Origin: an uncultured bacterium
Lineage (GTDB): Bacteria > Verrucomicrobiota > Kiritimatiellia > CAIKKV01 > CAIYGI01
Direction of reading: 5' to 3'
DNA: 34,029 nucleotides
Assembly (NCBI GenBank): GCA_903925685.1
Contig: CAIYGI010000094.1
Location: forward strand, 1-34,029
This document shows, piece after piece, positions 14,075-32,738 of this stretch. The translations under genes were made by a program, and so were the position numbers. The notes under the pieces were generated by a model. The model was not told the origin of the DNA and made no database searches. It saw only the letters and a program-made list of their open reading frames with translations. Every line of letters starts with the position of its first letter. Position 1 is the first letter of the stretch.

Positions 14075-14962
14075 TCATCCTTCATGCAGTGACCCCAGCG
14101 CCAGCAGCGCATAGAAGGCATATTCGCAGTCGGTTAGCGGGTCGGTTGGGTGTCCCCGGAATCCCCCGTTGTCGTCCCAGAGCGATTCCACGAAATCGAG
14201 ATGCGGTTCAACGCGCGCGGGATGCAAATCCGACGCGCGCAAAGCGTACAGGGCCGTGGCGGTGGAGAGCAGGTCCGGTCCCGGCGCGCGCGCGGAAGCG
14301 AGAAACCCGCCCGCCGGGCACTCGCAGGCCCGCAGCGCAGCCGCAACCCGCGGGTCGACGGCAAGATCGAGCCATTTCCGCAGCAGAATCGCGGCGGCGG
14401 TGACGGTGGTGGTGCCGCCTGGCATCTCCGCGGCATTGGCGTATCCGTCGTCGCCGGCGCGCAACTCCTCCACGCAGGCTCGCAGCGCCTCCGGGCGCGG
14501 CACTCTGGCGCCGGTTTCTTCGTAGGTCAAAAAAGCCAGGAAGGCCCCGTAGACCGTCCCGTGCCCGGCGCCGCGCAGGGCGGCATTATAGCCGCCGTCG
14601 GCGCTGCGATACGCTTCGAGATGTGGCAGCACCTTTCGTGCGCGCCGGGACGAAAACGGGTATGGCAATGCGGCCCAGCAGCGGGCCAGGGTGGCGCTGT
14701 GCACGAAATCCAGTTGCGCGCCATCGCCGAAACTCTCCAGATAGCGCCGCACGGGAGCTGGCGGCGGCGGATGTTTCAGCGCCGCCAGGCAGGCGCCTCC
14801 GAAAAGAGTGTAGTAAAGATCGCTGGCCGCCGCGCGGCCGCGAAATCCGCCGTCCGGCTGGATCTGGCTGCGGAGATAGCGGGCAAGATCGCTTATGTCG
14901 CTTTTCTCCATGAAGCGGATCGCGCGCGCGGCCGTCCTGACCATGTCAGGCGTCCGGCTCAT
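14075..14962 (-). CDS. Prenyltransferase/squalene-cyclase-like alpha-alpha toroid protein
   Basis: The 295 residues carry five or more repeats of the QW-like pattern of prenyltransferase beta subunits and terpene cyclases: IQPDGGFRGR, SADGGYNAALRG, GDDGYANAAEMPGG, CPAGGFLASARAPGPDLLST and DDNGGFRGHPTDPLTDCEYA. The fold is therefore probably an alpha6-alpha6 barrel. It is shorter than squalene-hopene cyclase and lacks that enzyme's DxDD acid motif. The zinc ligands Asp, Cys and His of protein prenyltransferases are not clearly all present. It starts inside the end of the polyprenyl synthase gene (4-nt ATGA overlap, 14959-14962), so it probably works with the prenyl diphosphate made there. The exact reaction is unknown. 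Confidence 0.7.
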   Translation of the reverse strand: MSRTPDMVRTAARAIRFMEKSDISDLARYLRSQIQPDGGFRGRAAASDLYYTLFGGACLAALKHPPPPAPVRRYLESFGDGAQLDFVHSATLARCWAALPYPFSSRRARKVLPHLEAYRSADGGYNAALRGAGHGTVYGAFLAFLTYEETGARVPRPEALRACVEELRAGDDGYANAAEMPGGTTTVTAAAILLRKWLDLAVDPRVAAALRACECPAGGFLASARAPGPDLLSTATALYALRASDLHPARVEPHLDFVESLWDDNGGFRGHPTDPLTDCEYAFYALLALGSLHEG

Positions 14963-16578
14963 GGCGCCGGCGCCGGCGCCAGGATTTTGGCGGCGACGCG
15001 ATAAAGCAGGCTTTTCAGAGTGGCCTGTCGCAGCGGGCGCAGCGAGCGGAGGGCGCGGTCTTCATATTGCAAAAGCAGTTTGCGGGCCCGCTGCTCCGCC
15101 TTCCGGCTGCGCCCGGAGATTTCTTCGCAGACGCTCCGGCTGCGTCCGTGCATCACGGCTTGGGCGCCCGTTTCGCCGTCGCTGCCGGCCTGTTCCTCGC
15201 GCGCCAGCGCCAGCAGCAGGGAGGGCGGAGTATGCGCGTCGGGCCGCGTCGTATGGTCCGCGGCCGCATCCTCCAGATCGTCGCGGATCTGGTAGGCGAT
15301 ACCCAGGGCCTCGCTGAAGGCCGTCAGCACGGCGCGCGTGTCATGGTCCGCGCCCGCGCAGATCGCGCCCAGTTGCAGGGCGACATCGTAGGCGGGCGCG
15401 GTCTTGCGGCGCAGGATTTCCAGAACAGTGTCCACGGTGACGCATTCCGGATTTCCCCGCAGCAGCAGTTCCTCACCCTGTCCGAGGCACAGCGTCCGGT
15501 GCCCCTCGGCGGCCACGGCGAGCATCTGGCGCACCTGCTCGGCGGATGCGCCGGATGCCGCGATCAGCCGGTAGCCCTCGCCGATCAGCAGGTCGCCGAT
15601 ATTGATCGCGACCGCCAGGCCGTGCCGCCGGTGCAGAGTCGGCGCGTTGTAACGGAAGTCGTCGCCATCTTCGATGTCGTCGTGAACGAGGGATGCCTTG
15701 TGAAAGCACTCCACGGCCACCGCCACCTTCTTCAGCAGCTCCGGGGTGGCGGATGCCGGATCGGTCAGGGCCTTGAAGACACAGACCGCCAGCGCCGGAC
15801 GCCAGCGCTTGCCGCCCTTGAGCATCCATTCGAGCGCAATGGCCTCGGTGCCGCTGCCAGACAGGTTCAGCAACCCGTTCAGGGCGCCGGGCTCGAACCA
15901 TCCGCTCACCTCGCGGCGCAACGCGCGCATGTCCATCCGGACGGCGGCGGGCCGCGCATCGCTCCTCAGGCGCAGGACTTCCGTGATCCAGGCGGTGTCC
16001 GCCTCCGTGTCCACGCAACCATTGCGGAGCAGCGGGACCGCCAGCGCCGGCACGGAGTGGGCGATCAGGGGATTGAACAATTTTTCGAGGGATTCCAGGC
16101 AACTCACACCGACGACGGCGTCGGCCCCGCCTGCCGACAGCAGCGCGGAGACGGCGGTCGTGCCCTCGGACACCAGCACGGCATAGCCCAACTGCTCGGC
16201 CTCCTTCTGGATGCCGCAGATTGCGCACCGTCCACAGGCCTCGCACAACAGTCCCAGACTATCGGTCTCCGCGGGGCAGGCGGCTCTGGAGCGCAAACAT
16301 TGCGGCAGAATCAGCACCCGGCGTTCGAAGGGCGTCGCGGTCACCGTGTCGCGCCAGACCTCGTTGCCCACCAGCACCGTCACGAAGCCGCGGAAGGAGG
16401 GATCGATCTGCGCCTCCCGCAGCAGATGGTCGGCATGCGCCTCGATCTCATCGAGGGCCAGCGGCGGCACCATCGTCTGTCCCGCGCAATAAGCCTGCAC
16501 GGCGCGGCGGATCGCATTCCGCGCGGACTTGTCCGGGGGGACGGAGTGGGTTCGCGGTTTGTCTAAAGGCGATTGCAT
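14959..16578 (-). CDS. DUF116 domain fused to trans-polyprenyl diphosphate synthase
   Basis: The 539-residue protein has two parts. Residues about 60-200 form a cysteine-rich domain with Cys94, 101, 112, 115, 118, 121 and 160 (LCEACGRCAICG, then GADAVVGVSCLESLEKLF), which I assign to DUF116. Residues about 230-539 are an isoprenyl diphosphate synthase with GGKRWRP (255-261), the first Asp-rich motif DDIED (300-304), RKTAPAY and the second Asp-rich motif DDLED (433-437). Both Asp motifs are intact, so chain elongation from allylic diphosphate plus IPP is expected; product length cannot be read reliably. The cysteines could hold a metal or Fe-S cluster. It follows the radical SAM gene after 24 bp and overlaps the next gene by 4 nt. 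Confidence 0.8.
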   Translation of the reverse strand: MQSPLDKPRTHSVPPDKSARNAIRRAVQAYCAGQTMVPPLALDEIEAHADHLLREAQIDPSFRGFVTVLVGNEVWRDTVTATPFERRVLILPQCLRSRAACPAETDSLGLLCEACGRCAICGIQKEAEQLGYAVLVSEGTTAVSALLSAGGADAVVGVSCLESLEKLFNPLIAHSVPALAVPLLRNGCVDTEADTAWITEVLRLRSDARPAAVRMDMRALRREVSGWFEPGALNGLLNLSGSGTEAIALEWMLKGGKRWRPALAVCVFKALTDPASATPELLKKVAVAVECFHKASLVHDDIEDGDDFRYNAPTLHRRHGLAVAINIGDLLIGEGYRLIAASGASAEQVRQMLAVAAEGHRTLCLGQGEELLLRGNPECVTVDTVLEILRRKTAPAYDVALQLGAICAGADHDTRAVLTAFSEALGIAYQIRDDLEDAAADHTTRPDAHTPPSLLLALAREEQAGSDGETGAQAVMHGRSRSVCEEISGRSRKAEQRARKLLLQYEDRALRSLRPLRQATLKSLLYRVAAKILAPAPAP

Positions 16579-16583
16579 GATTA

Positions 16584-16597
16584 GGTGTTCGGTGTTC
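16584..16597. repeat. Two perfect GGTGTTC heptamers
   Basis: GGTGTTC occurs twice in tandem in the 24-bp gap between the radical SAM gene and the DUF116-prenyl synthase gene. It is the smallest of the gene-boundary heptamer arrays seen in this window. Confidence 0.6.
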
Positions 16598-16602
16598 TGC
16601 CT

Positions 16603-17796
16603 TCACCCATAAGCCCCGAACCCGAAGAACCAGTGTTTTTTGGCGAAACGGTAGGCGGCGCTCTTTTCGGGAATTTCCATCCCCGGCACATGGTGGCTGG
16701 TATGCGGACGCATCGCCGCCAACTCTCCATATCCCGTGCCTCTGCCGCTCGAATCCCGGGCGGCTTGCTGGAGCAGAAATTCCCGCAACAAATCGGGCCG
16801 CTCCATGATTACGCAGCCCGTTGTCGTCCGGCTCGCGAAGTCCCGGAAGGACTGTAAAAAGCCAGGCTTGCTGAAGATCTCTTCCAGCGCACGGCCGTCG
16901 CGGATGTTATCGTGCGCAAACTGCAGGGGCGGGCAGGGCTCGATGTCGCCGCCGGGTCCGATATGATGCGCCATGCCGACCGCCGCCGGACAGAGGGCTT
17001 TGCCTTCATGGTCCCAATAGGCGTCCACGACCATCATGGGTGCGCGGCGGCGGATCTCGACGATGAAGCGGCGCAGTTCGACGATCTGCTCGGGCGACAA
17101 GGCCAGTTCCGGCGCCGGCCGCGGTCCCACCGGACGGTAGATGTAATACCAGAGATAATGGACGCCGCGCCGCGCCAGGTCCTGGACGAACGATTCCGAC
17201 GCCAGATCGCGCAGGTTGGAACGGCAGACGCTGGTGGCCGCGCCGATGACCAGCCGGTTCCTACGGCAGCACTCCAACCCGGCCATGGTGCGGGCGTAGA
17301 CATCGCGCCCGCCGCGCCGTTCGTCGCTGACCTCCGCCAGCCCCTCGATGCTGATCAGCGGGCTGATATTGCCGATCCGCCGCATTTCCCCGGCGACTTC
17401 GTCCGTAATCAGCGTGCCGTTGGTAAAGAGCAGGAAGTAGCACTCCGGATGCCGTTCGAAGACCTGGAAGAGCCCCTTGTGCAGCAGCGGTTCACCGCCC
17501 AGGATCCCGAAAAAGAAGGAGCCGTTGCGTTTACAGGTTTCGATCAGCGAATTCAGCGCGGCGCTATCGAGTTCCCGTCCGGGCGAACAGGGCGTGACCC
17601 AACAGCCCTGACAGGCCAGATTGCACCGGTCGGTGACTGAGATGAAGAGGAAGGCGGGAAAAAACTTGCCGTGCTTGAGCCGTTTCTGGAAACGCTCGAC
17701 CGCGCGCATGCCCTTCCAGCCAAAGTTCCACATGAACTTCCACAGCACCCGCTTGTCGGGTTCCGTCAATAAGCGATGGATGAGTTTTACGGACAT
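16603..17796 (-). CDS. Radical SAM protein of unknown substrate
   Basis: The 397-residue protein has the radical SAM cluster motif CNLACQGC (Cys58, Cys62, Cys65, CxxxCxxC) within FISVTDRCNLACQGCW, then GGEPLL (100-105), LLFTNGTLI and ISIEGL, all typical of the AdoMet radical core. The C-terminal part has further cysteines (ALCPAAVGMAHHIGPGG, EPCPP, TTGCVIMERPDLL) that may bind a second cluster, as SPASM-type or HpnH-like enzymes do. The basic N-terminal 45 residues may form a membrane-contacting helix. It is the first gene of the isoprenoid run, so a lipid or prenyl substrate is a reasonable inference. GAG about 7 nt ahead supports the ATG at 17796. Confidence 0.8.
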   Translation of the reverse strand: MSVKLIHRLLTEPDKRVLWKFMWNFGWKGMRAVERFQKRLKHGKFFPAFLFISVTDRCNLACQGCWVTPCSPGRELDSAALNSLIETCKRNGSFFFGILGGEPLLHKGLFQVFERHPECYFLLFTNGTLITDEVAGEMRRIGNISPLISIEGLAEVSDERRGGRDVYARTMAGLECCRRNRLVIGAATSVCRSNLRDLASESFVQDLARRGVHYLWYYIYRPVGPRPAPELALSPEQIVELRRFIVEIRRRAPMMVVDAYWDHEGKALCPAAVGMAHHIGPGGDIEPCPPLQFAHDNIRDGRALEEIFSKPGFLQSFRDFASRTTTGCVIMERPDLLREFLLQQAARDSSGRGTGYGELAAMRPHTSHHVPGMEIPEKSAAYRFAKKHWFFGFGAYG

Positions 17797-18016: not shown

Positions 18017-21000
18017 TCAAGTGGTTGCGCCCTCTTCGTTCGAGGGAATCGACTCGTAGATGGCTTTCGATAAGACGGCGAAGGCAGCGCTGCCGAATTC
18101 TTTGTCGTCCATGTAACGTGTAACGATTTTGTCGTTGTCGGCCATGCGTTGGACCATGAGATCTTCGATGAGTTGGCGCAGGCCGAGCTGGAACTTGTCG
18201 AACGGATTTGCGCGCCGGAGTTTGATGACGGTGTCGCTAGTGACGGCCTTCTCCCGGATTTGCTCGAAGAAGAAACGGTCCGCTTCGGTGAAGTTCGTTC
18301 CGAAGCGCTCGTTGAGTACCTGGATGATTTCAGACAGTGGCACCCTTACGTCCTTGCCCTTGCCTGTACCAACGTCGGTCGGGCTCTTCACACCCTCGGG
18401 TTCGCCTTCTTTTAACGTGATCTCGCCGGAGTAGATCCTCTGAAGGCGGTAATATTGCAGACCGACTTCGTCGCCCAGTTTGACGCGTTCTGTGTCGCGG
18501 TCGAGGATCAGATGTGGCAGGAGAAAGCGCCCGAAACTGTAGAGCATCTCCAGGGCAGAATCGCCGTAAGGGATGATCTGACTCATGAAGGAGTAGATGT
18601 TGACATAACCGTTCAACTTCTCGCGGAAGTCGCTGCGTTTGACATCGTCCCCGATCGCTTTGAAGCGATCGACTGCGGGTTGCAAATGCAGTTGCATCCC
18701 AGCGTGATCATGGGCGCTTTGCCGGGCGACTGGCTTGTAAAATACGCGGGCGAACGCCTCCACCTCACTCCAGAAATAGACCTGCGCGGCATCCAACTCG
18801 TGCTTGATCTTCTCCAACTGCTGGGGGTCTGAACCTTCCTGCAGGCTCGTGGCATCGTAGTAAGGTTTGAACGCTTTGTAGATGTTATCGGCCTCGTTGA
18901 CGAAATCCAGGACGAAGGGGTTTTCCTTCCCAGGAATCTTGCGGTTGAGCCGCGAGAGTGTTTGGACGGCCTGCACACCATCAAGGCGCTTATCCACATA
19001 CATGGCGCAGAGGTAGGGTTGATCGAAGCCTGTCTGGTATTTGTTTGCCACCAGTAACACCTGGTAATCCGGCGAAGCGAAACGTTCCGGCAGTTGCTTT
19101 TCACTGATTGGCTTTCCGCTCACGCAATCCGGGTTCATCCCGGGTTCGGTATATTCGACCCCTGTGTCTGGGTCTTTTACTGTGCCGCTGAAGGCGACCA
19201 GCGGGCGGATATCGGTGTAGTGGTTGTCGGCTATATAGCGTTGAAACGCCTGCATGTAGCGCACGGCATGCAGGCGCGAGGATGTAACGACCATGGCCTT
19301 GGCCTGGCCTCCGAGATGGCCCCGCACCTTCTGCCGGAAATGCTCGATCATCACCTCAGTTTTCTGTTCAAGGTTATGCGGATGCAGGCTCATGAACTTG
19401 GCCAGCGCTCGCGCCGCCTTCTTCTTCGGCAGGTTTGGATCATCTTCGATGGCCTTCACAAGCCGGTAATAGGTGGCGTAGGTGGTGTAGTTCTTCACTA
19501 CGTCAAGAATGAAGCCTTCTTCGATGGCCTGCCGCATCGAATAGAGGTGAAAGGCCTCGGGTAACCCTTTCGATCCCTTGCGCCCGAACAGTTCCAGTGT
19601 CTTGCCTTTGGGCGTCGCGGTGAAGGCAAAGAAGCTGAGATTAGGCTGCCGGCCACGCGACTGCATGATTTGGTTCAACCGGTCTTCCCAATCCGGTTCG
19701 TCCTCGCCGTTCGCCGCCTGGGCCGCAGCGCCAAGAATCGCCTTCAATTCCCGTGCCGTTTCGCCGGATTGACTGGAGTGCGCCTCGTCCACGATGATCG
19801 CATAACGTCGCCGGGCGATTTCCGCCTCCCACTGTGCCGCATCGGCCTTCTGTTCGGCAGTCGCATAATCCTGACTTTCCGCGCCAGTGGCGTGGAGCAG
19901 GCCGCGCAGCACGAAGGGAAACTTCTGCAACGTGGTGATAACGATCTTGGTGCCGTCAATGAGCGCCGCGGCCAGTTGCTTTGCATCCTGGTCAATTGCT
20001 TTTACGACGCCTTGCGCGTGTTCGATCTGGTAAATCGCGTCCTGTAATTGCTGGTCGAGCACCTGCCGGTCGGTGATGACAACGACGCAGTCGAAGACTA
20101 TTGCGTCCTGCGCGGTGTGCAGACTCGCGAGCCGATGCGAGAGCCAGGAAATGCTGTTCGTCTTCCCGCTCCCGGCGGAATGCTGGATGAGGTAGTTCCG
20201 TCCCGGCCCGTCCAGGCCCGCAGCGGCGACCAGGTTGCGTACCGCATCGAGTTGGTGGTAGCGGGGAAAGATCATCGTCTCTTTCGTGACCCAGCGATGG
20301 CCGCCGCGGCCGTCGTCCACCTTTTGCTCCTTTTTTTCGAGGAACATGAAATGGCCGAGGATGTCGAGGAAGCTGTCGAATCTCAGCACTTCCTCCCAGA
20401 AGTAACCCGTGCGATAGCCGGAGCCGTGCTGCGGATTGCCCGAACCGCAGATGATCTGGCCTGGATGACTGCCTCGATTGAACGGCAGGAAATGCGTCCG
20501 CTCCCCCTCCAGGCGGGTGGTCATGTGAATCTCTTCCGAGTCGGCGGCAAAATGGACCAGCGCTCGCTTCTTGAACTCGAACAACGGCGCGCGCGGGTCG
20601 CGGTCTTCCTTGTATTGGCGCAGGGCCTGGCGCCAGGTCTGGCCGGTGCCAGGATTCTTCAGTTCGATGGTCGCCACCGGCAGGCCGTTCACAGCGAGCA
20701 CCATGTCCAAGGTGCGATTGTCGCCGGGATGACACGGCACTTGGCGCGTCACCGTCAACCGGTTCTTCTCGAACAACGCCAGCACTTCCCAGTTCGCGCC
20801 GTGCGCCGGCCTGAAGTAGGCCAGGCGGAAGGTCTTGCCATAAAACTTGAAACCATGCCGCAGTACAGACAGCGAACTCTTGGTTTCCAGTTCTTTGACG
20901 AGCGTGGCGAGCATCAGCGTTTCCAGTCCCGCCGCGTGCAGCGCCTTCATTTCCTCCCATAGTTTGGGTTGGGTGTCCTGGATGAACGCGAAAACCTGCG

Positions 21001-21121
21001 CCGGGAACAGCGCCCGTTCTTTGTCCCACTCCGCATTGCTGCCGGTTTTCCAGCCGCCTTGTTTCAGCAGGATTTCTTCGACATAGGTCTCGAAGGCGTG
21101 TTCGTTGGTTTGGGCGGACAT
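18017..21121 (-). CDS. hsdR: Type I restriction enzyme, R (endonuclease/translocase) subunit
   Basis: HsdR translocates and cuts DNA lacking the methylation set by HsdM/S. The frame reaches 21190, but the ATG at 21121 has GAGGG at a good distance, overlapping the higA stop, and gives 1034 residues (MSAQTNEHAFETYVEEILLK). The PD-(D/E)xK nuclease is visible as D139 with E153-L-K155 (VATIELKNPGTG). Walker A AGSGKT lies at 316-321, the DEAH box at 445-448 and the SF2 motif FAFTATPKGKT downstream. The C-terminal part holds an EcoR124-like helical region. All key residues are intact, so the enzyme appears functional. It is separated from hsdM/hsdS by a toxin-antitoxin pair. Confidence 0.93.
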   Translation of the reverse strand: MSAQTNEHAFETYVEEILLKQGGWKTGSNAEWDKERALFPAQVFAFIQDTQPKLWEEMKALHAAGLETLMLATLVKELETKSSLSVLRHGFKFYGKTFRLAYFRPAHGANWEVLALFEKNRLTVTRQVPCHPGDNRTLDMVLAVNGLPVATIELKNPGTGQTWRQALRQYKEDRDPRAPLFEFKKRALVHFAADSEEIHMTTRLEGERTHFLPFNRGSHPGQIICGSGNPQHGSGYRTGYFWEEVLRFDSFLDILGHFMFLEKKEQKVDDGRGGHRWVTKETMIFPRYHQLDAVRNLVAAAGLDGPGRNYLIQHSAGSGKTNSISWLSHRLASLHTAQDAIVFDCVVVITDRQVLDQQLQDAIYQIEHAQGVVKAIDQDAKQLAAALIDGTKIVITTLQKFPFVLRGLLHATGAESQDYATAEQKADAAQWEAEIARRRYAIIVDEAHSSQSGETARELKAILGAAAQAANGEDEPDWEDRLNQIMQSRGRQPNLSFFAFTATPKGKTLELFGRKGSKGLPEAFHLYSMRQAIEEGFILDVVKNYTTYATYYRLVKAIEDDPNLPKKKAARALAKFMSLHPHNLEQKTEVMIEHFRQKVRGHLGGQAKAMVVTSSRLHAVRYMQAFQRYIADNHYTDIRPLVAFSGTVKDPDTGVEYTEPGMNPDCVSGKPISEKQLPERFASPDYQVLLVANKYQTGFDQPYLCAMYVDKRLDGVQAVQTLSRLNRKIPGKENPFVLDFVNEADNIYKAFKPYYDATSLQEGSDPQQLEKIKHELDAAQVYFWSEVEAFARVFYKPVARQSAHDHAGMQLHLQPAVDRFKAIGDDVKRSDFREKLNGYVNIYSFMSQIIPYGDSALEMLYSFGRFLLPHLILDRDTERVKLGDEVGLQYYRLQRIYSGEITLKEGEPEGVKSPTDVGTGKGKDVRVPLSEIIQVLNERFGTNFTEADRFFFEQIREKAVTSDTVIKLRRANPFDKFQLGLRQLIEDLMVQRMADNDKIVTRYMDDKEFGSAAFAVLSKAIYESIPSNEEGATT

Positions 21122-21131
21122 GGGATATCCC

Positions 21132-22355
21132 TCAAGCGACATCGCCGGCCAGGTGGGACGGGAACATCTTGCGAACGACGCGATTGCCAACCAAATGATT
21201 GAACGCCTGATAGTCCTTTCGTTCGAAACGTACGCGACCGGCTACGATTGCGGGATGGATGTTGAGACGCCGAGCGAGGGCGCGAATGTTCGCGTCCGTG
21301 GGCTTTTGCCGTATCGGAGAGGCATTCCATTCGCGTTCGGAAACGAGCGTTTCGGCGGCAAGTTTGTCGGCTTCCGTCTCTTTGGCATTGTTCGTAGGGA
21401 TGTCGTCCAGATCGTCCAAAAAAGTCCGATGGTCTCCCTTGGCCAGATGCATCACAACATGCGCAAGCTCGTGGGCTAGAGTGAACCAGAAATTGTCCAG
21501 CCGATCATGCCGTAGTGTAAGCGCAATCACAGGCTTTCCGTCGGGACGGGGCATCGCAGCTCCATCCAGATGCGTGCCGCGCAGGTAGTGCAGCGCGACA
21601 AACGGGATTCCGCTCTTCGCCAGCATCTGCCGGGCTAGCAATGGTCCCTCGTCGAGACAACTCAATCCAATCACCGAACGGATGAAATCCCGCGTCATGG
21701 CCTTGGGATCGTAATCGCCCACATCGGCGCGGGCCGCAAGGTTCAAGACCCGCCCCTGCCATGCCCAAAGCGCATAGTCATCGGTCTTGCTGTTCTTTCG
21801 AATCCGCTGGCGCGCCGCCAGCGCATACTCCCGGCAGTCCCGCCCGCCAGGGAAAAGAAGCGGGCCAAGCATTTCTTCCGCCTGCTCCTCGAAATCGCGA
21901 GGCTTTCCGTCGAATGCCGGGAACCATGCTCGCTTCACCAGTTCCGCAAGTGGAAACCGGTTCCACTCGATGCCGGCGAGTTCCGGGGCGAGCGGAACCC
22001 TTTTATCCTGCAACAAGACTTCCGCCGGTATCCCCAAATCCATGTGCAGTCGGCGTATCATCGAAAGGCTCAGTGGACGTTTTCCGCTCAATACTTCCGA
22101 AACGCGGCTTTTGCTGCCGATGAACGGAACCAACTCTTTCGGTTTGAGGTTCTGTTGCTCCATGCGGAATTTGATTGCGCTGATCGGGTCCGGAATATCG
22201 ATCGGGTGGTGCTGTGCCTCGTAGCGTTCGATCAGAAGCGTCCATAGTTCGGCGGCGTCGGCCTCCGGCGTGCCAGACGCCGCATCCCACAACGCTTCGA
22301 TCTGCTGGAGCGCCGCATCGTAGTCAACTTCGGTTTTGAGAATCCTGGCTTTCAT
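21132..22355 (-). CDS. higA: HigA antitoxin fused to ImmA/IrrE metallopeptidase domain
   Basis: The protein has about 407 residues. Its N-terminal part is HigA-like: LWTLLIERYEAQHHPIDIPD and a helix-turn-helix (LKPKELVPFIGSKSRVSEVL, then SGKRPLSLSMIRRLHMDLGI) up to about residue 115. The C-terminal part has the zinc protease motif HELAH at about 296 in FTLAHELAHVVMHL, followed by ETEADKLAAETLV, the ImmA/IrrE signature. Such fusions repress their operon and may cleave regulators or partner proteins. The ATG at 22355 overlaps the ancestral higB stop by 1 nt; a GTG at 22358 would add one residue. The reading frame is intact. It stands between hsdS and hsdR on the same strand. Confidence 0.8.
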   Translation of the reverse strand: MKARILKTEVDYDAALQQIEALWDAASGTPEADAAELWTLLIERYEAQHHPIDIPDPISAIKFRMEQQNLKPKELVPFIGSKSRVSEVLSGKRPLSLSMIRRLHMDLGIPAEVLLQDKRVPLAPELAGIEWNRFPLAELVKRAWFPAFDGKPRDFEEQAEEMLGPLLFPGGRDCREYALAARQRIRKNSKTDDYALWAWQGRVLNLAARADVGDYDPKAMTRDFIRSVIGLSCLDEGPLLARQMLAKSGIPFVALHYLRGTHLDGAAMPRPDGKPVIALTLRHDRLDNFWFTLAHELAHVVMHLAKGDHRTFLDDLDDIPTNNAKETEADKLAAETLVSEREWNASPIRQKPTDANIRALARRLNIHPAIVAGRVRFERKDYQAFNHLVGNRVVRKMFPSHLAGDVA

Positions 22356-22668
22356 CACATTTTCTCCACGTCCAGTTTGTCATAGTCCGCGTGCGTGCCG
22401 ACCCACCGGATAAAGACCCGACCCACCGGATAAAGACCCGACCAAACCGATAATGCACCCAGACAAGCAGACGGTACTTGTTCCCCCCGATATTGAATAC
22501 GACGCGTTTCCCGTCGAGGATGCTCGCGCTTCCAAATTTCGCCTTCAACTCGGCGGAATTCACCCACCGCGCAGCCTCGGTCTCTTTGAACCACGCCTTC
22601 AGCGGATTTTCCGCGTCTGGCCGTTGCCGCCAGTATGCACGCAAAGCCCTCTTGGAAATCACATGCAT
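22324..22668 (-). pseudogene. higB: HigB-type mRNA interferase toxin, C-terminus frameshifted by a 20-bp duplication
   Basis: HigB toxins cleave mRNA at the ribosome. From ATG 22668 the frame reads MHVISKRALRAYWRQRPDAE, then AWFKETEAARWVNSAELK and FGRVFIRWVG, all normal for the HigB_toxin family. A perfect 20-bp tandem duplication (22401-22440) then shifts the frame: the tail becomes SLSGGSARTRT and runs past the proper stop to 22324. Removing one copy restores GTHADYDKLDVEKM and a TGA at 22357-22355 that overlaps the higA ATG by 1 nt. The lost tail contains the family's conserved GTHxxYDK. The toxin is therefore probably inactive or altered, unless the duplication is an assembly or population variant. 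Confidence 0.75.
22401..22440. repeat. Perfect 20-bp tandem duplication inside higB
   Basis: The 20-bp unit starting ACCCACCGGATAAAG is present twice without a mismatch, at 22401-22420 and 22421-22440, followed by ACC of a third. Because 20 is not a multiple of 3, it changes the reading frame of the toxin gene. Confidence 0.95.
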
Positions 22669-22672
22669 GAAC

Positions 22673-24004
22673 CTACGCTGTTCCCTTTTCGGTGTCAACA
22701 CAATAGTTCCCATTAAGGGAACTCATCCGCACGTCAATCTTGCCGGTGACGGCGGCGGTAATGAGGGCGGTGCGGTATTCCTGCAACCGCTCCACCGCCT
22801 CCTCAACCTTCCCCACCAGCGCGTCCAGTTTCGCCGTCTCCTTGTCCAGATGCGCGGCGATGGCGGTTTGCTCGGGGAGGGGTGGAACGGCTGTCATTGT
22901 CGGGTGGATGTCATTTCGATCCACACCAGGGACGGCTGATTTGTTGGCGTTCAACAAGAACAGCGGCGATAGATGCATGAGCATATACCGCAGGAAGGAG
23001 ATATTGTTGCCGCGCAGTTCAATGCTATAGAGGCTCGTATTGAGAGGCCAATAATCAGTCTCAACCAAGTAGAACTCACCAATAGTCCCGTAGCGCCCCG
23101 TCACAATGCCAGGCCCTTTTGCAGCGGCCTTTGAAATGAACGCGGACGTGCCCGCAGACGTGACCAGTGGGATACTCCCCTCCTCTCGCTCATCAGATGG
23201 GAGGTCATGGCCACGCTGGAACTTTATCGCCCATTTCAACTGCTTCACATCCCAATGCTTCGGGATGTCGCCGAGCCAGTCGAGTCCGGAGGGTTTGAGG
23301 GGCGGGTTGGCGGGGAGGCCGGCGGCGCGGGCAGCGGCGGGCGGCAGGCCGCGGGTGACGGTGCGGGAGATGAGCGCAGTGCGCTTCTCTTTCAGCCGCT
23401 CGATCAACTCCCGCTTCTTCGCCATCAACCGGTCCATCCGCCCCGTCTCCCGGTCCAGAAACGCCGCGATGGACTGTTGCTCGGTAAGGTCGGGGAGGTG
23501 CAGGTTGGTCGTTTTTACCGATTCAAATGTGAGGCTTTCGACAGTCGCTCCCTGCTGCCGCCAGAGCGCGAGCAACGCCGGTTGATTGCCCTCAATCAGG
23601 TAAGCGATGAACTTGGGATCAACACCGTTCACCGGCACGCAACCGCGAATGTCCTGATTGATGGCCATTTCACGTGTGATGATCGCCGCCGGGATGGAAT
23701 GCCTGAGAATTCCGGAACGATTAACCATCAGCAAACTGTTGGCGGGCATTTTGCAAGTGGAAGACTTACAGACCGCTTCCTCCGAGATGTGGTCCTCGGT
23801 ATCGGAAATAACCATCGACTTCATGTCCTTGGAAGAGACCCAGGGAAGGTCGCCATCCCACAACTCGCTTTCGCTAGTTGATGGCGTGCCGCCGCTGTAA
23901 AAGCGAAACAGGTAACCAAACCGTCTGGACTCCCAATGCTCCGGCACGTCGCCGAGCCATTCGACGCCGCTGGGTTTGTATTTCGGGTAAGGCAGGAGGT
24001 ACAT
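22673..24004 (-). CDS. hsdS: Type I restriction-modification specificity subunit
   Basis: HsdS reads the two halves of the split recognition sequence. The 443 residues show the family's internal duplication: PKYKPSGVEWLGDVPEHWE (about 7-25) and LKPSGLDWLGDIPKHWD (about 236-252) start two target-recognition domains. Each ends in a helical spacer: EQQSIAAFLDRETGRMDRLM with KEKRTALISRTVTRG, and EQTAIAAHLDKETAKLDALV with QEYRTALITAAVTGK. Both halves are complete. The last codons overlap the promoter/operator region of the higBA pair. The recognition sequence cannot be predicted. It follows the four-helix-bundle suffix gene after 49 bp. Confidence 0.93.
   Translation of the reverse strand: MYLLPYPKYKPSGVEWLGDVPEHWESRRFGYLFRFYSGGTPSTSESELWDGDLPWVSSKDMKSMVISDTEDHISEEAVCKSSTCKMPANSLLMVNRSGILRHSIPAAIITREMAINQDIRGCVPVNGVDPKFIAYLIEGNQPALLALWRQQGATVESLTFESVKTTNLHLPDLTEQQSIAAFLDRETGRMDRLMAKKRELIERLKEKRTALISRTVTRGLPPAAARAAGLPANPPLKPSGLDWLGDIPKHWDVKQLKWAIKFQRGHDLPSDEREEGSIPLVTSAGTSAFISKAAAKGPGIVTGRYGTIGEFYLVETDYWPLNTSLYSIELRGNNISFLRYMLMHLSPLFLLNANKSAVPGVDRNDIHPTMTAVPPLPEQTAIAAHLDKETAKLDALVGKVEEAVERLQEYRTALITAAVTGKIDVRMSSLNGNYCVDTEKGTA
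22706..22722. promoter_or_regulatory. Candidate HigA operator palindrome
   Basis: GTTCCC-ATTAA-GGGAAC is a perfect 6-bp inverted repeat with a 5-bp centre, 38 bp upstream of the higB start and within the end of hsdS. A further half-site GTTCCC lies at 22680-22685. Antitoxins with HTH domains bind such palindromes to repress their operon; this assignment is inferred from position and symmetry. Confidence 0.45.
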
Positions 24005-24053
24005 GGGCGGTGTTTTCAGTGACCGAAAAGACGGAAGGGACGAAGGAGGGATT

Positions 24054-24617
24054 TCATGGGCGGTTTTGCTTGGCGCGTTCGGCGAGGCGGGCGCGGGTCA
24101 TGCGCTCGCGCAGGCCACCCTCTTTCACGAAGGCTTCTTCCAACTGGCGGAGTTGCTGGTCGAGCAGGTAGTTGGTCAGTTTGATCAGGCCAATCATGAC
24201 ATTGGCGGCAATGGCCGGGTCGGGGTGTTCGATGCCTTTCTTGAAGGTGTCGTAGTTGGCGTTGGGGGTGCGGTTGAGTTGACGGAGGCGCAGGGTGTGG
24301 GAGTGGTCCTTGGGCCATTCTTCGATGCCACGCAGCCGGATGAAATCGCGGTAGTCTTCGAGAAGTTCCTCCAGACTGGCGCGGGCCACGTTGGTCAGTT
24401 TGATTTCGGTTTCCTTGGAGGTGCCGGAGGCGCGGCTGCCTTCGAGGATGTTCTGTTTGCCGGAACGGGCGGCCTGCACCATCTGGTCGGTGGTGCGGGA
24501 ACGCTTGTCCACAAAGCGTTCGCAGAAGCGCACCGTGCCGTCAAAGACGATGCGCGCTTTCTGGAATGAGAGCAGGTTCTCGTAGCCGCCGTGGGGTGGG
24601 ATGAAGTGCTCAGGCAT
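24054..24617 (-). CDS. Four-helix-bundle protein with suffix domain, in the hsd operon
   Basis: The 187 residues begin MPEHFIPPHGGYENLLSFQK, then ARIVFDGTVRFCERFVDKRS, DQMVQAARSGKQNILEGSRA and LTNVARASLEELLEDYRDFI. This is the four-helix-bundle fold related to S23 intervening-sequence proteins, in the longer suffix-domain form often encoded between hsdM and hsdS. The C-terminus is Arg/Lys-rich (RERMTRARLAERAKQNRP) and could bind nucleic acid. Its function in restriction-modification systems is not established. It lies 49 bp from hsdS and 110 bp from hsdM and is bordered on both sides by GAAGGGAC-type repeats. Confidence 0.7.
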   Translation of the reverse strand: MPEHFIPPHGGYENLLSFQKARIVFDGTVRFCERFVDKRSRTTDQMVQAARSGKQNILEGSRASGTSKETEIKLTNVARASLEELLEDYRDFIRLRGIEEWPKDHSHTLRLRQLNRTPNANYDTFKKGIEHPDPAIAANVMIGLIKLTNYLLDQQLRQLEEAFVKEGGLRERMTRARLAERAKQNRP

Positions 24618-24638
24618 AACGGTTCACCTTTGAGGCGG

Positions 24639-24720
24639 GACTGAAGGGACAGAAATGACGAAACGAAGGCCAGCAACCAGCCATCGGTAAATTGCTTGAG
24701 TCCCTTTTGTCCCTTCAGTC
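24639..24720. repeat. Perfect 13-bp inverted repeat between hsdM and the four-helix-bundle gene
   Basis: GACTGAAGGGACA (24639-24651) and its exact complement TGTCCCTTCAGTC (24708-24720) enclose 56 bp. GAAGGGAC-like units recur on the other side of the four-helix-bundle gene (24030-24049, GAAAAGACGGAAGGGACGAA), so the gene is bracketed by related repeats. Confidence 0.8.
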
Positions 24721-24727
24721 ATTGGCT

Positions 24728-26872
24728 TCACGCCGTCACCTCTTTGAGCATTTTCATGATGTCGTCTTCCAGGCGCTTGATGTCCGTCTCGATGATTTCC
24801 AGCGGGCGTGGCGGTTCGTAACGGTAGAAGTGGCGGTTGAGCGGGATTTCGTAGCCGACCTTGGTCTTGGTGGTGTCAATCCACGCATCGGGGACGTGGG
24901 GCAGCACTTCGCGTTTGAAGTAGGCCTCGATGCTTTCCTTGAGCGGCACGGTTTCGGTGTCGCGCAGGTCGGCATCGGGTTCGGGCTGGCCGTCGCGGTC
25001 GCGGCAGATTTCGGCGGTCTCGTCGCGTTCGCCGAGGGCGGCAAGCACGGCCTTGAGTTCCGGGACGCTCAGGCGCACGTCGCGCGCGCGGGTACGCAGT
25101 TCGGCGAGGAAGGCCTTGCGGTCTTTGAAGAGTTTTCCCTTGGTGACTTTGCCAAAGGCGCGGAGCAGTTCGCGGATTTGTTCCTGCCGCTGGTGGCCGG
25201 TTTCGATTTCCTGCTGGCGGACGGCGGGGTCTTTCCTGGCGCTGGTGGCGAGATTCTTGAAGGCGCTCTCTTCGTCGAGTCGGGCGATACGCTCGGCGTT
25301 GGCCTGGAAGTTCAGTCGCAGCGGGCGTTCGACGGTGATCTTGTGGTAACCGAAGTCGTCGTTGTCGAAAATCTTGCTGACGACGCGCTGGCGTTGGATG
25401 GGTTGGTGGGTGATTGCGTCTTCCTCGGTGAAGGTGCGTGTCTGGCCGTCGCGGAAGTTGCCGAAAATTTTGGTGAGTTCCCCGATGTGATCGGGGTCCT
25501 TTGCCTTGTCCGATGGGTCACCAATGCGGCGGCGTTTGTTGCCGAGGCTTTTTTCCATTTGCACCCAGAACTGGCGGGCATCGATGAGTTGCACCTTGGT
25601 CTTGCGGGGTTTTTCCTTGCGGTTGGTGAGCACCCACAGGTAGGTGGAGATACCGGTGTTGTAGAAGAGTTGCTCGGGCAGAGCGACGATGGCCTCCAGC
25701 CAGTCGTTTTCGATGATCCATTGGCGGATGTTGCTTTCGCCACCGCCGGCGTCGCCGGTGAAAAGGGGCGAGCCGTTGAAGACGATGGCGAGGCGACTGC
25801 CGCCGTCCTGCGGGGCGCGCATCTTGGAGAGCATGTGCTGGAGAAATAGCAGCGCGCCGTCATTGACACGGGGCGTGCCTGCGCCAAAGCGCCCACTAAA
25901 GCCGAGGTCGTCCTTTTCCTTTTCGATGTATTTTTGCTGTTGTTTCCACTCTACGCCAAAGGGCGGATTGGCGAGCATGTAGTCGAAGGTCCATTTTTTG
26001 CCATCCGCGTTACGGTCAAACCCGTCTTTGGTGAAGGTGTCGCCGAGGATGATCTGATCAGAATCCTCGCCCTTGATGAGCATATCGGATTTACAGACGG
26101 CCCAAGCCTCGTCGTTCCAGTCTTGTCCGAAGAGTTTGGGCTGCGCGTCCGCGTTGAGGTCGCGGATGTATTTCTCGGAGACGGACAACATGCCGCCCGT
26201 GCCGCAGGCGGGGTCGTAGATGGTTTTGACGACGTGGCTGCGGGCAAGGTCATTCTCCGGGGAGAGCAGGAGATTGACCATGAGTTTGATTACCTCGCGC
26301 GGCGTGAAGTGTTCCCCGGCCTCCTCGTTGGATTGTTCCGCGCCGATCCGGATGAGTTCTTCGAAGACGTAGCCCATCTGGACGTTGTCAACGCGGGCGG
26401 GCGATAGGTCAATGGCGGCGAAGCGTTTGATGACAAGGTAGAGCAGGTCTTTCTCAGCCATGGTGGCGATTTCATCGCCAAACTTGAAGCGCTCCATGAT
26501 GGCGCGAACATTGGGTGAAAAGCCGTTGATGTAGTTGTTGAGATTCGGCGCGAGTTGGTTGGCGTCGTCGAGCAGTCCGTTGAGGCCGCTGCCGTCTGGT
26601 GGTTTGGCGAAAGTGAACCTGGAGAGGTTGTAGAACGCGTGACCGGTGATCGAGCAGAGTTTGTGTCGGATGATGTTTTCCGTCTTGGCCTTGATGGCCG
26701 AGTGTTCCTTGAGTACGGCGGGTTTGGTCGGAGCGAGGATGCAATCGAAGCGGCGCAGCACCGTGAGTGGAAGGATGACCTTGCGATACTCGTTCCGTTT
26801 GTACGGTCCGCGGAGAAGGTTGCAGATACTCCAGATGAAACTAGCGACTTGGGAATGGGTTTCAGAAGACAT
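24728..26872 (-). CDS. hsdM: Type I restriction-modification DNA methyltransferase subunit
   Basis: HsdM transfers methyl groups from SAM to adenine N6. The frame extends to 26929, but I prefer the ATG at 26872 (MSSETHSQVASFIWSICNLL), which matches the usual start and gives 714 residues. The HsdM N-terminal helical domain (YRKVILPLTVLRRFDCIL) is followed by the SAM motif DPACGTGG (220-227), the catalytic NPPF (302-305) and QLFYNTGISTYLWVL. The last 200 residues form a longer helical tail than in E. coli HsdM (529 residues). No strong ribosome site is visible. It is the first gene of the hsd operon, behind a candidate promoter. Confidence 0.93.
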   Translation of the reverse strand: MSSETHSQVASFIWSICNLLRGPYKRNEYRKVILPLTVLRRFDCILAPTKPAVLKEHSAIKAKTENIIRHKLCSITGHAFYNLSRFTFAKPPDGSGLNGLLDDANQLAPNLNNYINGFSPNVRAIMERFKFGDEIATMAEKDLLYLVIKRFAAIDLSPARVDNVQMGYVFEELIRIGAEQSNEEAGEHFTPREVIKLMVNLLLSPENDLARSHVVKTIYDPACGTGGMLSVSEKYIRDLNADAQPKLFGQDWNDEAWAVCKSDMLIKGEDSDQIILGDTFTKDGFDRNADGKKWTFDYMLANPPFGVEWKQQQKYIEKEKDDLGFSGRFGAGTPRVNDGALLFLQHMLSKMRAPQDGGSRLAIVFNGSPLFTGDAGGGESNIRQWIIENDWLEAIVALPEQLFYNTGISTYLWVLTNRKEKPRKTKVQLIDARQFWVQMEKSLGNKRRRIGDPSDKAKDPDHIGELTKIFGNFRDGQTRTFTEEDAITHQPIQRQRVVSKIFDNDDFGYHKITVERPLRLNFQANAERIARLDEESAFKNLATSARKDPAVRQQEIETGHQRQEQIRELLRAFGKVTKGKLFKDRKAFLAELRTRARDVRLSVPELKAVLAALGERDETAEICRDRDGQPEPDADLRDTETVPLKESIEAYFKREVLPHVPDAWIDTTKTKVGYEIPLNRHFYRYEPPRPLEIIETDIKRLEDDIMKMLKEVTA

Positions 26873-26945
26873 GGTGATGATTAGGTGGCGATCATCGGAT
26901 GGGTTGGGAACATTAAAAAACAGGCGCATTCAAACATGGCGTGAC

Positions 26946-27054: not shown

Positions 27055-27843
27055 TCAGGAGGAATGCGCAGCGCGTTCTTTTTCGGCCTGTTCGACGGCC
27101 GGCCTGCGCAGACGGCGCTTGCGGGCCTCTTTCTGCCGTTCGGCCAGGGCGGCGTGGATGTCGTCGCCGAGGATTTCCTGCACCTTGATCCGCGCCCGCG
27201 CCTTGAGGCCGGACTCGTCGCCAATCTCGGCGCCGTTCAGCGGCGCTTCGGCCTCGGGAAGTTTCGGGAAGATAATAGCCACTTCCGGACAGATGCGCGA
27301 GCAGGCCGGACAGTTGTTCTTGCAACCGCGCGGATTCGCCACAACCACCCTGCCGTCCGGCGCCGTGGAATAGACCCCGAACAGACAGAAACTCAGGCAC
27401 TGCTTGCATTGCCGGCAGCGGTCATGATCGATCACGGGAAACCAGGGGACCCACTCCTCTGCCGGCTCTCCGGTCTCCGCGGCTGCAGGAATTGCGTCCG
27501 CCGGTGCCTCGGCCGATTCCTTGCCGGCCAGCACGGCTAGAATTTCCGGCGCGCTTTGCTTCCGCATGTCTAGGAACACGACTTTGGTTTCGTCCAGCGG
27601 CGCCCCGGCCCAATGGAAAAGCCAGCGCACCGCTCGCGGATGACAGGCCACGACGATTAAGCGCTCACCCGCGACCAGTTCCGCCAGGCGCGGATCGCGG
27701 CGCTCCGCGATGGCGCAGAAATCGTCCACCACCATTGCGTCCGCCCGCCCCGCCAGCGCCTCGTCCACCGCCCGCCGGGTTTCCCCGGGAACGACGGCAG
27801 TCTTGGCGCAGCGGCAATAAAGTATTTGCGTTGGGTGATTCAT
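27055..27843 (-). CDS. Ferredoxin-like iron-sulfur protein of the redox operon
   Basis: The protein of about 262 residues begins MNHPTQILYCRCAKTAVVPG. Residues 1-100 form an unrecognised domain with a CRC motif and LIVVACHPRAVRWLFHWAG. The middle holds a two-cluster [4Fe-4S] ferredoxin pattern, CRQCKQCLSFC and CKNNCPACSRICPE. The end is a charged helix (AALAERQKEARKRRLRRPA). The family is not known to me; the neighbours suggest an electron carrier for the NuoEF/GltD-like complex. I chose the ATG at 27843 because GGAG stands 5 nt ahead; an in-frame ATG at 27861 lies in the heptamer array. It starts 28 bp after the oxidoreductase stop and is the last gene of the operon. Confidence 0.65.
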   Translation of the reverse strand: MNHPTQILYCRCAKTAVVPGETRRAVDEALAGRADAMVVDDFCAIAERRDPRLAELVAGERLIVVACHPRAVRWLFHWAGAPLDETKVVFLDMRKQSAPEILAVLAGKESAEAPADAIPAAAETGEPAEEWVPWFPVIDHDRCRQCKQCLSFCLFGVYSTAPDGRVVVANPRGCKNNCPACSRICPEVAIIFPKLPEAEAPLNGAEIGDESGLKARARIKVQEILGDDIHAALAERQKEARKRRLRRPAVEQAEKERAAHSS

Positions 27844-27850
27844 ATGCGCT

Positions 27851-27886
27851 CCACTCACCACTCACCACTCACTACTCACCACTCCC
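27851..27886. repeat. CACTCAC heptamer array
   Basis: CACTCAC occurs three times in tandem, followed by TACTCAC and CACTCCC, across the gap between the ferredoxin-like and oxidoreductase genes. Its right end runs over the oxidoreductase stop (27872-27874) and encodes the final Gly-Gly-Ser-Gly-Glu. Confidence 0.8.
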
Positions 27887-29551
27887 CCCCGCCAGCGCCC
27901 CGGTGGGGCAGGCGGCGATCACCTCGCCGGCGACTTCCGCCAGGGCGGCGGCCAGGGTTTGTCCGGCCGGCGGGCTGATGCGCATCTGAAATCCGCGCCT
28001 GATGAAACTGATGCCGGGCACTTCCTCGTGACGCTGCGCGACGCGGACGCACAGTCCGCACTTGATGCACTTGCCCGGTTCGAAAACCAGGCCGTTGGCT
28101 TGGATCTGAAGTTCGAACGGATGCCGCTCGCCTTCCGCGAAACGGTGGTGTTCGGCGCCCAGATACTCCACGGCGTCGCGCAAGCGGCAGTCGTCGGCCT
28201 TGCGGCAGTCGCAGTGCAGGCAGCGCTCCGCCTCGGCCCGCGCTTCCTCCGCGGTGAATCCGCCCGGCAGACCCGCGGCCGGCTCGACCCGCGCGCGGTT
28301 CACGGCCTGTTTCGACACTTCCCGCAGTTCCTCCTCCGTGAGTTTGCCGATGATGCAGTTAAAGCGCCGCAATTCGCCGCCCACCGCCGCGCCTTTTAGA
28401 AACTCGTCGCAGGCGAAGGCGCACTCCTTGCCGTCCGCGCAGGCGCGCACGGACATCTTGAGCGGCCGCAGCGCGCCGCCGATCGCAAAAACGCCCGGCA
28501 GCGGCGTCAGGTATGTATGCATGTCGGCCTGGAGCCCGCGCGCGGCCATCGGCGCGCCCAGCAGCGCGGCCTGCGCCGCGTCCAGCGTGCCCACGGCCAG
28601 GATCACGGCGTCATACGTCTGGCGCAGGTTGGCCAGCGTACGGTCGCGCCCGATGCGCACGCCTTTGTGAAAGTTCACGCCCAGGCGGCGGATATGTTCG
28701 ATCTCGCGGTCAAGCACGTCGCGTGGCAGCCGCTCGGCCGGCACATGCTCCCGCAACGCGCCGCCCGGCGCCGGCTGGTCGTCGAAGAGATCGCAGGCAT
28801 GGCCGCGCCGGCGCAGGTAGAAGGTCGCCGCCAGCCCCGCCGGTCCGGCGCCCACGACCGCCACCCGCCTGCCGCTCGCGGGCGGCAGATGCGCTTTGTC
28901 ATCTGGAGGGACGGGCTCCGTCCCGTCCGTTCCTTTCGCTCTCGCTGGCTCACGGACGACACGGAGGTCGTCCCTCCAAATTCGCGTTGCGCTGGCAGTA
29001 CCGTCACGGACGTCCTCCGCGCCGTGATCGCCGGCGAAACGTTTCAAGAGACAGATCGAAATCGGACGGTCGAGTTTGGCGCGGCGGCAGACTTTTTCGC
29101 ACGGCGCCGGACAGATGCGGCCGAGCACGGAGGGCAGGGCGATGTCGCGCCGCACCGTCGCCAGCGCCTCCGCGTGGCGGCCGGCGGCGATTTGACGGAT
29201 CATCAGCGGAATATTCAGGTGGGCGGGACAGCCGCGCTGGCAGAGCCCTTCGCAATCGCCCACGTGTTCGCTCATCAGCAGTTCCACGGCGGCGCGGCGC
29301 GCCGCCCGGACGGCAGGCGTGTCCGTCTGCACCGCCAGCCCCGCGCCCGCGGGATAGGCGCAGGCGGGCACCAGCCGGTGTACGCCCGCCACCTCCACCA
29401 CACACACCATGCAGGAGGCGCCCGGCGGCAGGCCCGGCAGATGGCAGAGCGTCGGTATCTCGATGCCGAGTTTGTGCGCGGCCTGCAGGATCGTGGCGCC
29501 TGCGGCAACTTCGACCGCGCGCCCATCGATGGTTAATTTGTGCAAGTTCAT
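27872..29551 (-). CDS. [2Fe-2S]/[4Fe-4S] FAD oxidoreductase, GltD-like, NuoG-type N-terminus
   Basis: The 559 residues read as follows. A [2Fe-2S] ferredoxin domain has Cys36, 47, 50 and 64. A NuoG-type His96-Cys100-Cys104-Cys108 cluster site is next. A GltD-type domain has Cys147-x3-Cys151-x3-Cys155, then the FAD site GAGPAG (234-239) and AVIL-AVGT. A C-terminal ferredoxin piece carries CIKCGLCVR. Enzymes of this make-up couple NAD(P)H oxidation to ferredoxin in electron-bifurcating complexes such as Nfn. Residues 192-216 are encoded by a 75-bp palindromic element inserted in frame between the linker and the FAD domain. The start overlaps the NuoEF stop by 4 nt (ATGA). Confidence 0.8.
   Translation of the reverse strand: MNLHKLTIDGRAVEVAAGATILQAAHKLGIEIPTLCHLPGLPPGASCMVCVVEVAGVHRLVPACAYPAGAGLAVQTDTPAVRAARRAAVELLMSEHVGDCEGLCQRGCPAHLNIPLMIRQIAAGRHAEALATVRRDIALPSVLGRICPAPCEKVCRRAKLDRPISICLLKRFAGDHGAEDVRDGTASATRIWRDDLRVVREPARAKGTDGTEPVPPDDKAHLPPASGRRVAVVGAGPAGLAATFYLRRRGHACDLFDDQPAPGGALREHVPAERLPRDVLDREIEHIRRLGVNFHKGVRIGRDRTLANLRQTYDAVILAVGTLDAAQAALLGAPMAARGLQADMHTYLTPLPGVFAIGGALRPLKMSVRACADGKECAFACDEFLKGAAVGGELRRFNCIIGKLTEEELREVSKQAVNRARVEPAAGLPGGFTAEEARAEAERCLHCDCRKADDCRLRDAVEYLGAEHHRFAEGERHPFELQIQANGLVFEPGKCIKCGLCVRVAQRHEEVPGISFIRRGFQMRISPPAGQTLAAALAEVAGEVIAACPTGALAGGSGE
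28904..28978. repeat. 75-bp palindromic element inserted in frame in a coding gene
   Basis: The ends TGGAGGGACG (28904-28913) and CGTCCCTCCA (28969-28978) are perfect inverted repeats. Inside are two hairpins: GGGACGG-GCT-CCGTCCC (28908-28924) and GGACGAC-ACGGAG-GTCGTCC (28954-28973). The length is exactly 25 codons and the edge coincides with codon 192 of the oxidoreductase, so the reading frame is kept. It looks like a REP/BIME-type or Rickettsia-palindromic-element-type repeat; whether it is dispersed in this genome cannot be seen here. Confidence 0.8.
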
Positions 29552-32025: not shown

Positions 32026-32579
32026 TGTTTACTGTTCACTTCTCCGCTCTCACTCTTCCTCTCGCCCTCGCTCTTCGTTCCAGCCAGCCAGGCTACAAGC
32101 AACGCCGCCGCGATCAGCATGACCGCGCCGGCCGCCAGGCCGCGCCGCATGGCACGCCGCCGCACCCACTCGGCCGGCGGCGGACCCAGGCCGGCGACAT
32201 CCGGCGTGTCGTCGCGCAGCAGCGGAATCGCCGCCAGACTGATCAGCAGCGCCAGCCCGCCGCCGAGCAGCAGCCAGCGTCCCGTGGAGATACGTTCTCC
32301 GTGCCTGAAGTAAACCTGCCGCGCCCGCAGGTCGGCGGCGCGGATGCCGAGTTTCAGCGCCTCGCTGTTCGGCGCCTCGGCGAACTGGCGGCGCAGTTCC
32401 AGCAGCGCGGGCGCGTTCAACGGATCGCTCTTCACCAGCCAGGCATGGTTGGCGATCACCAGCGCGCTGACGATCAGGCAGAAGACCGCCGCCACGGCCG
32501 CGGCGGACGCGAGCGCCGCGCGCAACTTGGCGCGCCAGGATGGCGGTGGCGATGTCATGAGCTGTGGTTCAGTAGTCAT
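32022..32579 (-). CDS. Small membrane protein, first gene of the redox operon
   Basis: The protein of about 185 residues has three hydrophobic segments (AALASAAAVAAVFCLIVSAL, LLLGGGLALLISLAAIPLL and GLAAGAVMLIAAALLVAWLA). A conserved-looking loop lies between the first two (DPLNAPALLELRRQFAEAPN, then LKLGIRAADLRARQVYFRHG). I do not recognise a named family. The chosen ATG at 32579 overlaps the stop of the nucleotidyltransferase remnant (ATGA); an upstream TTG at 32588 is less likely. The tail TKSEGERKSESGEVNSKQ is encoded by repeat-like DNA, and the stop overlaps the GTG of the NuoE-NuoF gene. It could anchor the redox complex to the membrane; that is inference only. Confidence 0.6.
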   Translation of the reverse strand: MTTEPQLMTSPPPSWRAKLRAALASAAAVAAVFCLIVSALVIANHAWLVKSDPLNAPALLELRRQFAEAPNSEALKLGIRAADLRARQVYFRHGERISTGRWLLLGGGLALLISLAAIPLLRDDTPDVAGLGPPPAEWVRRRAMRRGLAAGAVMLIAAALLVAWLAGTKSEGERKSESGEVNSKQ

Positions 32580-32738
32580 TGTTGCCAATTTGTTGGAAGA
32601 TGCTCAAGATCATCAAGGTCCTTGTGCCGGCCGGATGCGCGGATAGCCATGATAACCAACGGCGTACCCGCCGATCAGAAGATACTCAACCCCGGTGTCG
32701 TTCAACAACTTCAAGAATTCGTTGAAGTCGCTGGGCAG
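32576..32738 (-). pseudogene. Nucleotidyltransferase with internal deletion
   Basis: The front reads LPSDFNEFLKLLNDTGVEYL, then IGGYAVGYHGYPR, the start of the MNT/AbiEii-like nucleotidyltransferase family up to the point just before its catalytic aspartates. The next frame reads SGRHKDLDDLEHLPTNWQQ and a TGA at 32578-32576, which is the usual C-terminal end of the same family. The two parts meet near 32636, one base out of frame, so the catalytic middle (about 100 or more residues) has been lost. No ATG is seen at the front; a CTG stands at the first homologous codon. The product must be inactive. Confidence 0.65.

Follow-up and report, generated by a model that had tools for sequence, protein, structure and literature searches.

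A conserved gene set around a DUF116-polyprenyl synthase fusion: a candidate squalene-independent route to cyclized long-chain polyprenyl lipids

The Bacillus sesquarterpene pathway comprises heptaprenyl diphosphate, tetraprenyl-beta-curcumene synthase and a cyclase of the squalene-hopene cyclase (SHC) type. The locus described here, in a 34,029-nucleotide stretch of DNA from an uncultured Kiritimatiellia bacterium (GenBank contig CAIYGI010000094.1; the whole stretch is called the window, and coordinates are window positions unless a locus or contig is named), is like it in combining an apparently long-chain head-to-tail polyprenyl unit with an SHC-type cyclase, but has a radical S-adenosylmethionine (SAM) protein, a DUF116 domain, a ferredoxin protein and an alpha/alpha-toroid protein instead. 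No tetraprenyl-beta-curcumene synthase was found among the conserved neighbors of these genes; no genome-wide search for it was made. We lean, with moderate confidence, towards the view that three genes of the window, encoding the radical SAM protein, a fusion of DUF116 to a trans-polyprenyl synthase and the toroid protein, are the core of one pathway to a cyclized long-chain head-to-tail polyprenyl lipid whose synthesis does not pass through squalene.

The other precedent concerns DUF116 itself. Archaeal DUF116 proteins (arCOG02078) were predicted in a 2015 comparative study to fold like flavodoxins and to take part in electron transfer, and the same study mentions, in one sentence, a DUF116-polyprenyl synthetase fusion in Pirellula staleyi (Psta_0175), for which it gives no pathway and no partners (PMC5898192). 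The fusion alone is thus already known; what is new, as far as the literature was searched, is the pathway and the set of partners. No account of the fusion together with the radical SAM protein, toroid, ferredoxin protein and cyclase, or of such a pathway, was found in that search, which had subscription papers and preprints outside its scope. An earlier note, made from the letters of this DNA, had called the pathway undescribed, which holds for the pathway but not for the fusion.

As that note had reported, the three core genes lie head to tail, all on the minus strand and with ATG starts: the radical SAM gene (16603-17796, 397 amino acids) is separated by a 24-bp gap from the fusion gene (14959-16578, 539 amino acids), which overlaps the toroid gene (14075-14962, 295 amino acids) by 4 nt. 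Pfam places both halves of the fusion in one protein, DUF116 (PF01976; residues 54-201, 15976-16419; E 6e-29, 101 bits against a cut-off of 25) standing in front of polyprenyl_synt (residues 252-443, 15250-15825; E 5e-40). The Cys-rich character ascribed to the N-terminal domain, which it has in common with the predicted flavodoxin-like redox domain of arCOG02078, is borne out by seven invariant cysteines (C94, C101, C112, C115, C118, C160 and C188), and both Asp-rich motifs of the synthase are intact as claimed (DDIED and DDLED), along with a GKRWRP motif. An AlphaFold model of the fusion (predicted local distance difference test, pLDDT, 87.7) agrees with an alpha/beta fold for DUF116; the fold search made with it was dominated by the synthase half and is therefore uninformative on DUF116.

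In trans-polyprenyl synthases, a small residue at position -5 of the first Asp-rich motif (FARM) permits long chains. The FARM pattern is present in 82 of 87 fusions and that of the second Asp-rich motif (SARM) in 86 of 87, and all 82 motif-matched fusions have Ala/Ser at positions -5/-4, as do this genome's long-chain-type enzyme and 3aqb, a hexaprenyl diphosphate synthase (HMASLVHDD); the geranylgeranyl diphosphate synthases 1wy0, 5jfq and 6kd7, and the genome's short-chain enzyme, have Tyr/Phe there, not Ala/Ser. Judged by these residues, the likely product of the synthase domain is an all-E polyprenyl diphosphate with a chain of about C30 or longer. The fusion further resembles long-chain enzymes such as 3aqb in its FARM, SARM, GKRxRP, KT and GQ motifs, but differs from them by the N-terminal DUF116 and by RY replacing RR after FARM. 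The fusion is an extra enzyme, as the genome encodes two further polyprenyl synthases, which their motifs mark as one short-chain and one long-chain type.

The radical SAM protein (Pfam Radical_SAM, E 1e-13, 52 bits against a cut-off of 29.5) resembles SkfB; the cysteines of its CxxxCxxC motif (C58, C62 and C65) are invariant, as are C269, C288 and C328. Identity with HpnH, the adenosyl-hopene transferase, was rejected on a TIGR03470 score of 32 bits against a cut-off of 225. At some planctomycete loci (L066, 6662-8209; L085, 5700-7496) the usual radical SAM gene is absent and a member of another radical SAM family, possibly a substitute, lies upstream of the fusion.

The three genes proposed at the outset as an isoprenoid pathway turn out to belong to a larger unit, so that the idea of a pathway gains support while its extent has to be redrawn to take in a ferredoxin protein and a DxDD-bearing class II cyclase, both previously overlooked. 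The gene order ferredoxin protein, radical SAM protein, fusion, toroid and a cyclase of about 600 amino acids is found in Verrucomicrobiota, Planctomycetota, Bacteroidota, Acidobacteriota and Riflebacteria, and is contiguous in L035, a genome from the same order as that of the window. When GTDB genomes were scanned with the fusion, at least 575 relatives came up, the best 80 of which belong, by record title, to these five phyla and others. Among loci with a long enough flank on the relevant side, the toroid gene lies directly downstream of the fusion on the same strand in 56 of 73 and the cyclase gene downstream in 34 of 53, with the ferredoxin protein upstream in 42 of 58 and the radical SAM gene upstream in 39 of 58. 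The distances within the gene families correlate with one another, those of the toroid most closely with those of the fusion (r 0.89).

The co-occurrence of the genes, whose lack in other genomes would by the earlier note have refuted the pathway, is borne out by one sample of 289 genomes of Verrucomicrobiota, 59 of which, in 40 genera, carry the fusion, and each partner accompanies it in 55 to 59 of these. The ferredoxin protein and the fusion coincide without exception, sharing one set of 59 genomes (Fisher p 5e-63), and the former ranks as an obligate partner; the cyclase is in 57 of them and in two fusion-negative ones; the radical SAM protein is in 55 and never without the fusion; and the toroid is in 55, plus four others at the threshold used. 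Across the partner genes the Fisher p values, which ignore the relatedness of the genomes, run from 3e-49 to 5e-63. Some genomes, G199 among them, carry all the genes at scattered sites, so linkage alone does not explain their co-occurrence. A toroid homologue also occurs in four genomes (G102, G174, G186 and G231) that, at the thresholds applied, lack the fusion, the ferredoxin protein and the cyclase. No plasmid match was found for the fusion or the cyclase.

The partner cyclase has both domains of squalene-hopene cyclases (SQHop), and all three Asp of its DxDD motif, PDADDT, are invariant in 44 of 44 aligned sequences; the window genome's own copy is on another contig (G000:C31:5868-7988) with DxDD intact. 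It shares these traits with the squalene-hopene and oxidosqualene cyclases but differs from them in score and in company. Against the models for squalene, oxidosqualene and hopene cyclases, with their cut-offs of 323-851, representatives reach 69-138 bits (69-89 bits against 431 for the NCBIfam hopene cyclase model TIGR01507), which puts them outside those named families, and their genomes usually have no squalene synthase. Squalene and phytoene synthases make up the family SQS_PSY, which neither the window's own genome nor any of the 17 genomes of its order contains. It is also missing from 49 of the 59 genomes of the phylum that have the fusion and, across several phyla, from 24 of 50 carriers, including rumen and gut Bacteroidota. 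The search for it works, as its detection in 7 of 14 control genomes indicates.

By analogy with established families, the synthase domain would supply this long all-E polyprenyl diphosphate, and the class II cyclase would protonate the far end of the chain and form rings. More tentatively, the ferredoxin protein, NADH-fed in some species, may power both the radical SAM enzyme and DUF116 with its many cysteines, and these might modify either the diphosphate terminus or the rings by radical or reductive steps, and the toroid, so tightly coupled to the fusion gene, might bind or position the prenyl chain between steps.

The electron supply leads to the most serious alternative. The ferredoxin gene (27055-27861, minus strand, 268 amino acids) encodes a dicluster ferredoxin protein with an N-terminal CxC domain that resembles, by eye, the N-terminus of HdrA. 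Adjoining it on the same strand are genes for an NfnB/GltD-like NAD(P) oxidoreductase with Fer2 and Fer4_20 domains (27872-29551), a NuoEF-like NADH-oxidizing subunit with two ferredoxin clusters (29548-32025) and a small membrane protein (32022-32588) whose homologue is beside the core in Bacteroidota; the loci L111 and L045 have homologues of all three next to the core, as other loci do in part. The earlier note was right that no hopanoid, carotenoid or quinone gene lies nearby, in that the scanned open reading frames (ORFs) gave no such Pfam match, but it passed over the ferredoxin protein and this NADH-oxidizing module (27872-32025). Bacteroidota loci add a NapH-like membrane protein, a Tat (twin-arginine translocation) ferredoxin and beta-propellers of the pyrroloquinoline quinone (PQQ) type. 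The set might then make a redox cofactor of prenyl origin, or an electron carrier of the membrane, for these linked proteins rather than a structural lipid, as the trans-membrane iron-sulfur (Fe-S) chain and NADH-oxidizing subunits flanking the core in Bacteroidota, Riflebacteria, one Planctomycetota and one Acidobacteriota locus, and the three homologues in the window, would suggest. We consider this unlikely: most loci of Verrucomicrobiota and Planctomycetota have no electron module close to the core, and known quinones need no DxDD cyclase. The NfnB-like gene, moreover, is not specific to fusion-positive genomes and does not track the fusion, on which ground the NuoEF/NfnB-like module was rejected as an obligate part and is taken to be optional.

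A separate observation concerns a conserved block next to the core in Bacteroidota and in one planctomycete (L105, 12611-18573; L113, 13963-20197; L119, 6742-8115 and 14020-21455). It combines PQQ-type beta-propellers with a Tat ferredoxin, a NapH-like membrane Fe-S protein and a NuoEF-like protein, and may constitute an undescribed trans-membrane electron chain.

The presence of an SHC-like DxDD cyclase in genomes without SQS_PSY could also be accounted for if the radical SAM enzyme, DUF116 and the synthase formed a new route to a squalene-like coupled hydrocarbon of C30 or more, cyclized to a hopanoid-like triterpenoid. The radical SAM tetraether synthase (PMC8941075) is a precedent for radical SAM chemistry on lipids. 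However, SQS_PSY is carried as well by 10 of the 59 fusion-positive genomes of the phylum and 26 of the 50 others, so that the set is no simple replacement for it and a plain bypass of squalene synthase is weakened as a candidate; furthermore, the signature of the synthase is that of a long-chain enzyme, whereas squalene requires C15 units. We regard this route as decidedly improbable.

The third core protein was described at first as having toroid repeats without the DxDD of squalene-hopene cyclases, and this is what was found: it matches Pfam Prenyltrans (E 1.5e-8), and DxDD is absent from the toroid alignment. Modeling, suggested as a check, gave a toroid structure with a pLDDT of 95.9, whose closest folds are the monodomain squalene-hopene-type cyclases 8paj and 8pak and the beta subunit of Rab geranylgeranyltransferase (RabGGTase), at template-modeling (TM) scores of 0.65-0.72; MstE is a poor match (TM 0.35). 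The toroid is like these nearest folds in being a single alpha/alpha barrel but differs in having neither DxDD nor zinc ligands. Across 44 toroid sequences no Cys or His is invariant, and Tyr occupies the aligned position of the zinc-binding His; the toroid thus lacks the zinc site that protein prenyltransferases have. The toroid was therefore rejected as a protein prenyltransferase, judged on the Asp/Cys/His zinc ligands, and the thought that it might be an ordinary one unrelated to the synthase, which would have counted against the pathway, is not upheld. The residues that are invariant (D48, Y50, Y51, D230, D278, E280 and Y281) mark a possible binding site. That the system prenylates a peptide or protein, with the toroid as prenyltransferase and the radical SAM protein as peptide maturase, might be read from the fold of RabGGTase beta (TM 0.72) and the resemblance to SkfB, but is highly improbable with the zinc triad lacking, no precursor peptide family among the conserved neighbor ORFs (those of at least 80 amino acids were considered) and the class II cyclase left unexplained.

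Several points weigh against the squalene-independent polyprenyl pathway that we favor. There are two genomes with a cyclase match but no fusion and two with the fusion but no cyclase, and the Fisher values take no account of relatedness. With SQS_PSY in about half of the cross-phylum carriers (the 26 of 50 given above), squalene could be the cyclase substrate there. The predicted chain length turns on two residues, and the lipid product, the order of the steps, the roles of the toroid and DUF116 and the substrate of the radical SAM enzyme are proposals made from sequence.

In the window the ferredoxin gene is separated from the radical SAM gene by a type I restriction-modification system and its neighbors (18017-26929, minus strand), which have no part in the pathway. 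In a sister genome that interval holds another type I system (HsdM 43% and HsdS 28% identical), and in L035 it holds none, so the cluster was probably split by an insertion in this genus. With the cyclase gene elsewhere in the genome as well, only three genes stood out at first. The interval (window 18017-26929; L034, 1288-5342), with its differing type I systems in two related genomes, looks like an insertion hotspot. Elsewhere, genes for a GcvH-like (lipoyl-type) protein and a CobW-type GTPase are often found upstream of the core (L044, 5203-6974; L087, 5678-7254; about 20 other loci) in Verrucomicrobiota, Planctomycetota and Acidobacteriota, and a cysteine-desulfurase-like class V aminotransferase gene adjoins it in about 10 loci (for example L053, 5607-6818, and L087, 14431-15591).

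The tricyclic terpanes (cheilanthanes) of sediments and oils have been called orphan biomarkers (PMC9247107), and the precursor proposed for them is tricyclohexaprenol, a regular C30 isoprenoid from the membranes of prokaryotes (PMC10319793). It is a long shot, offered tentatively, that the present gene set is the missing route to regular tricyclic polyprenols such as this postulated bacterial precursor; it is nonetheless the kind of set of enzymes that the tricyclohexaprenol proposal needs, and the origin of tricyclic terpanes thereby becomes testable. That a class II cyclase, a long-chain synthase and redox and radical enzymes travel together through several phyla, including in gut and rumen Bacteroidota free of squalene and phytoene synthases, points to an abundant and unrecognized class of cyclic isoprenoid lipids.

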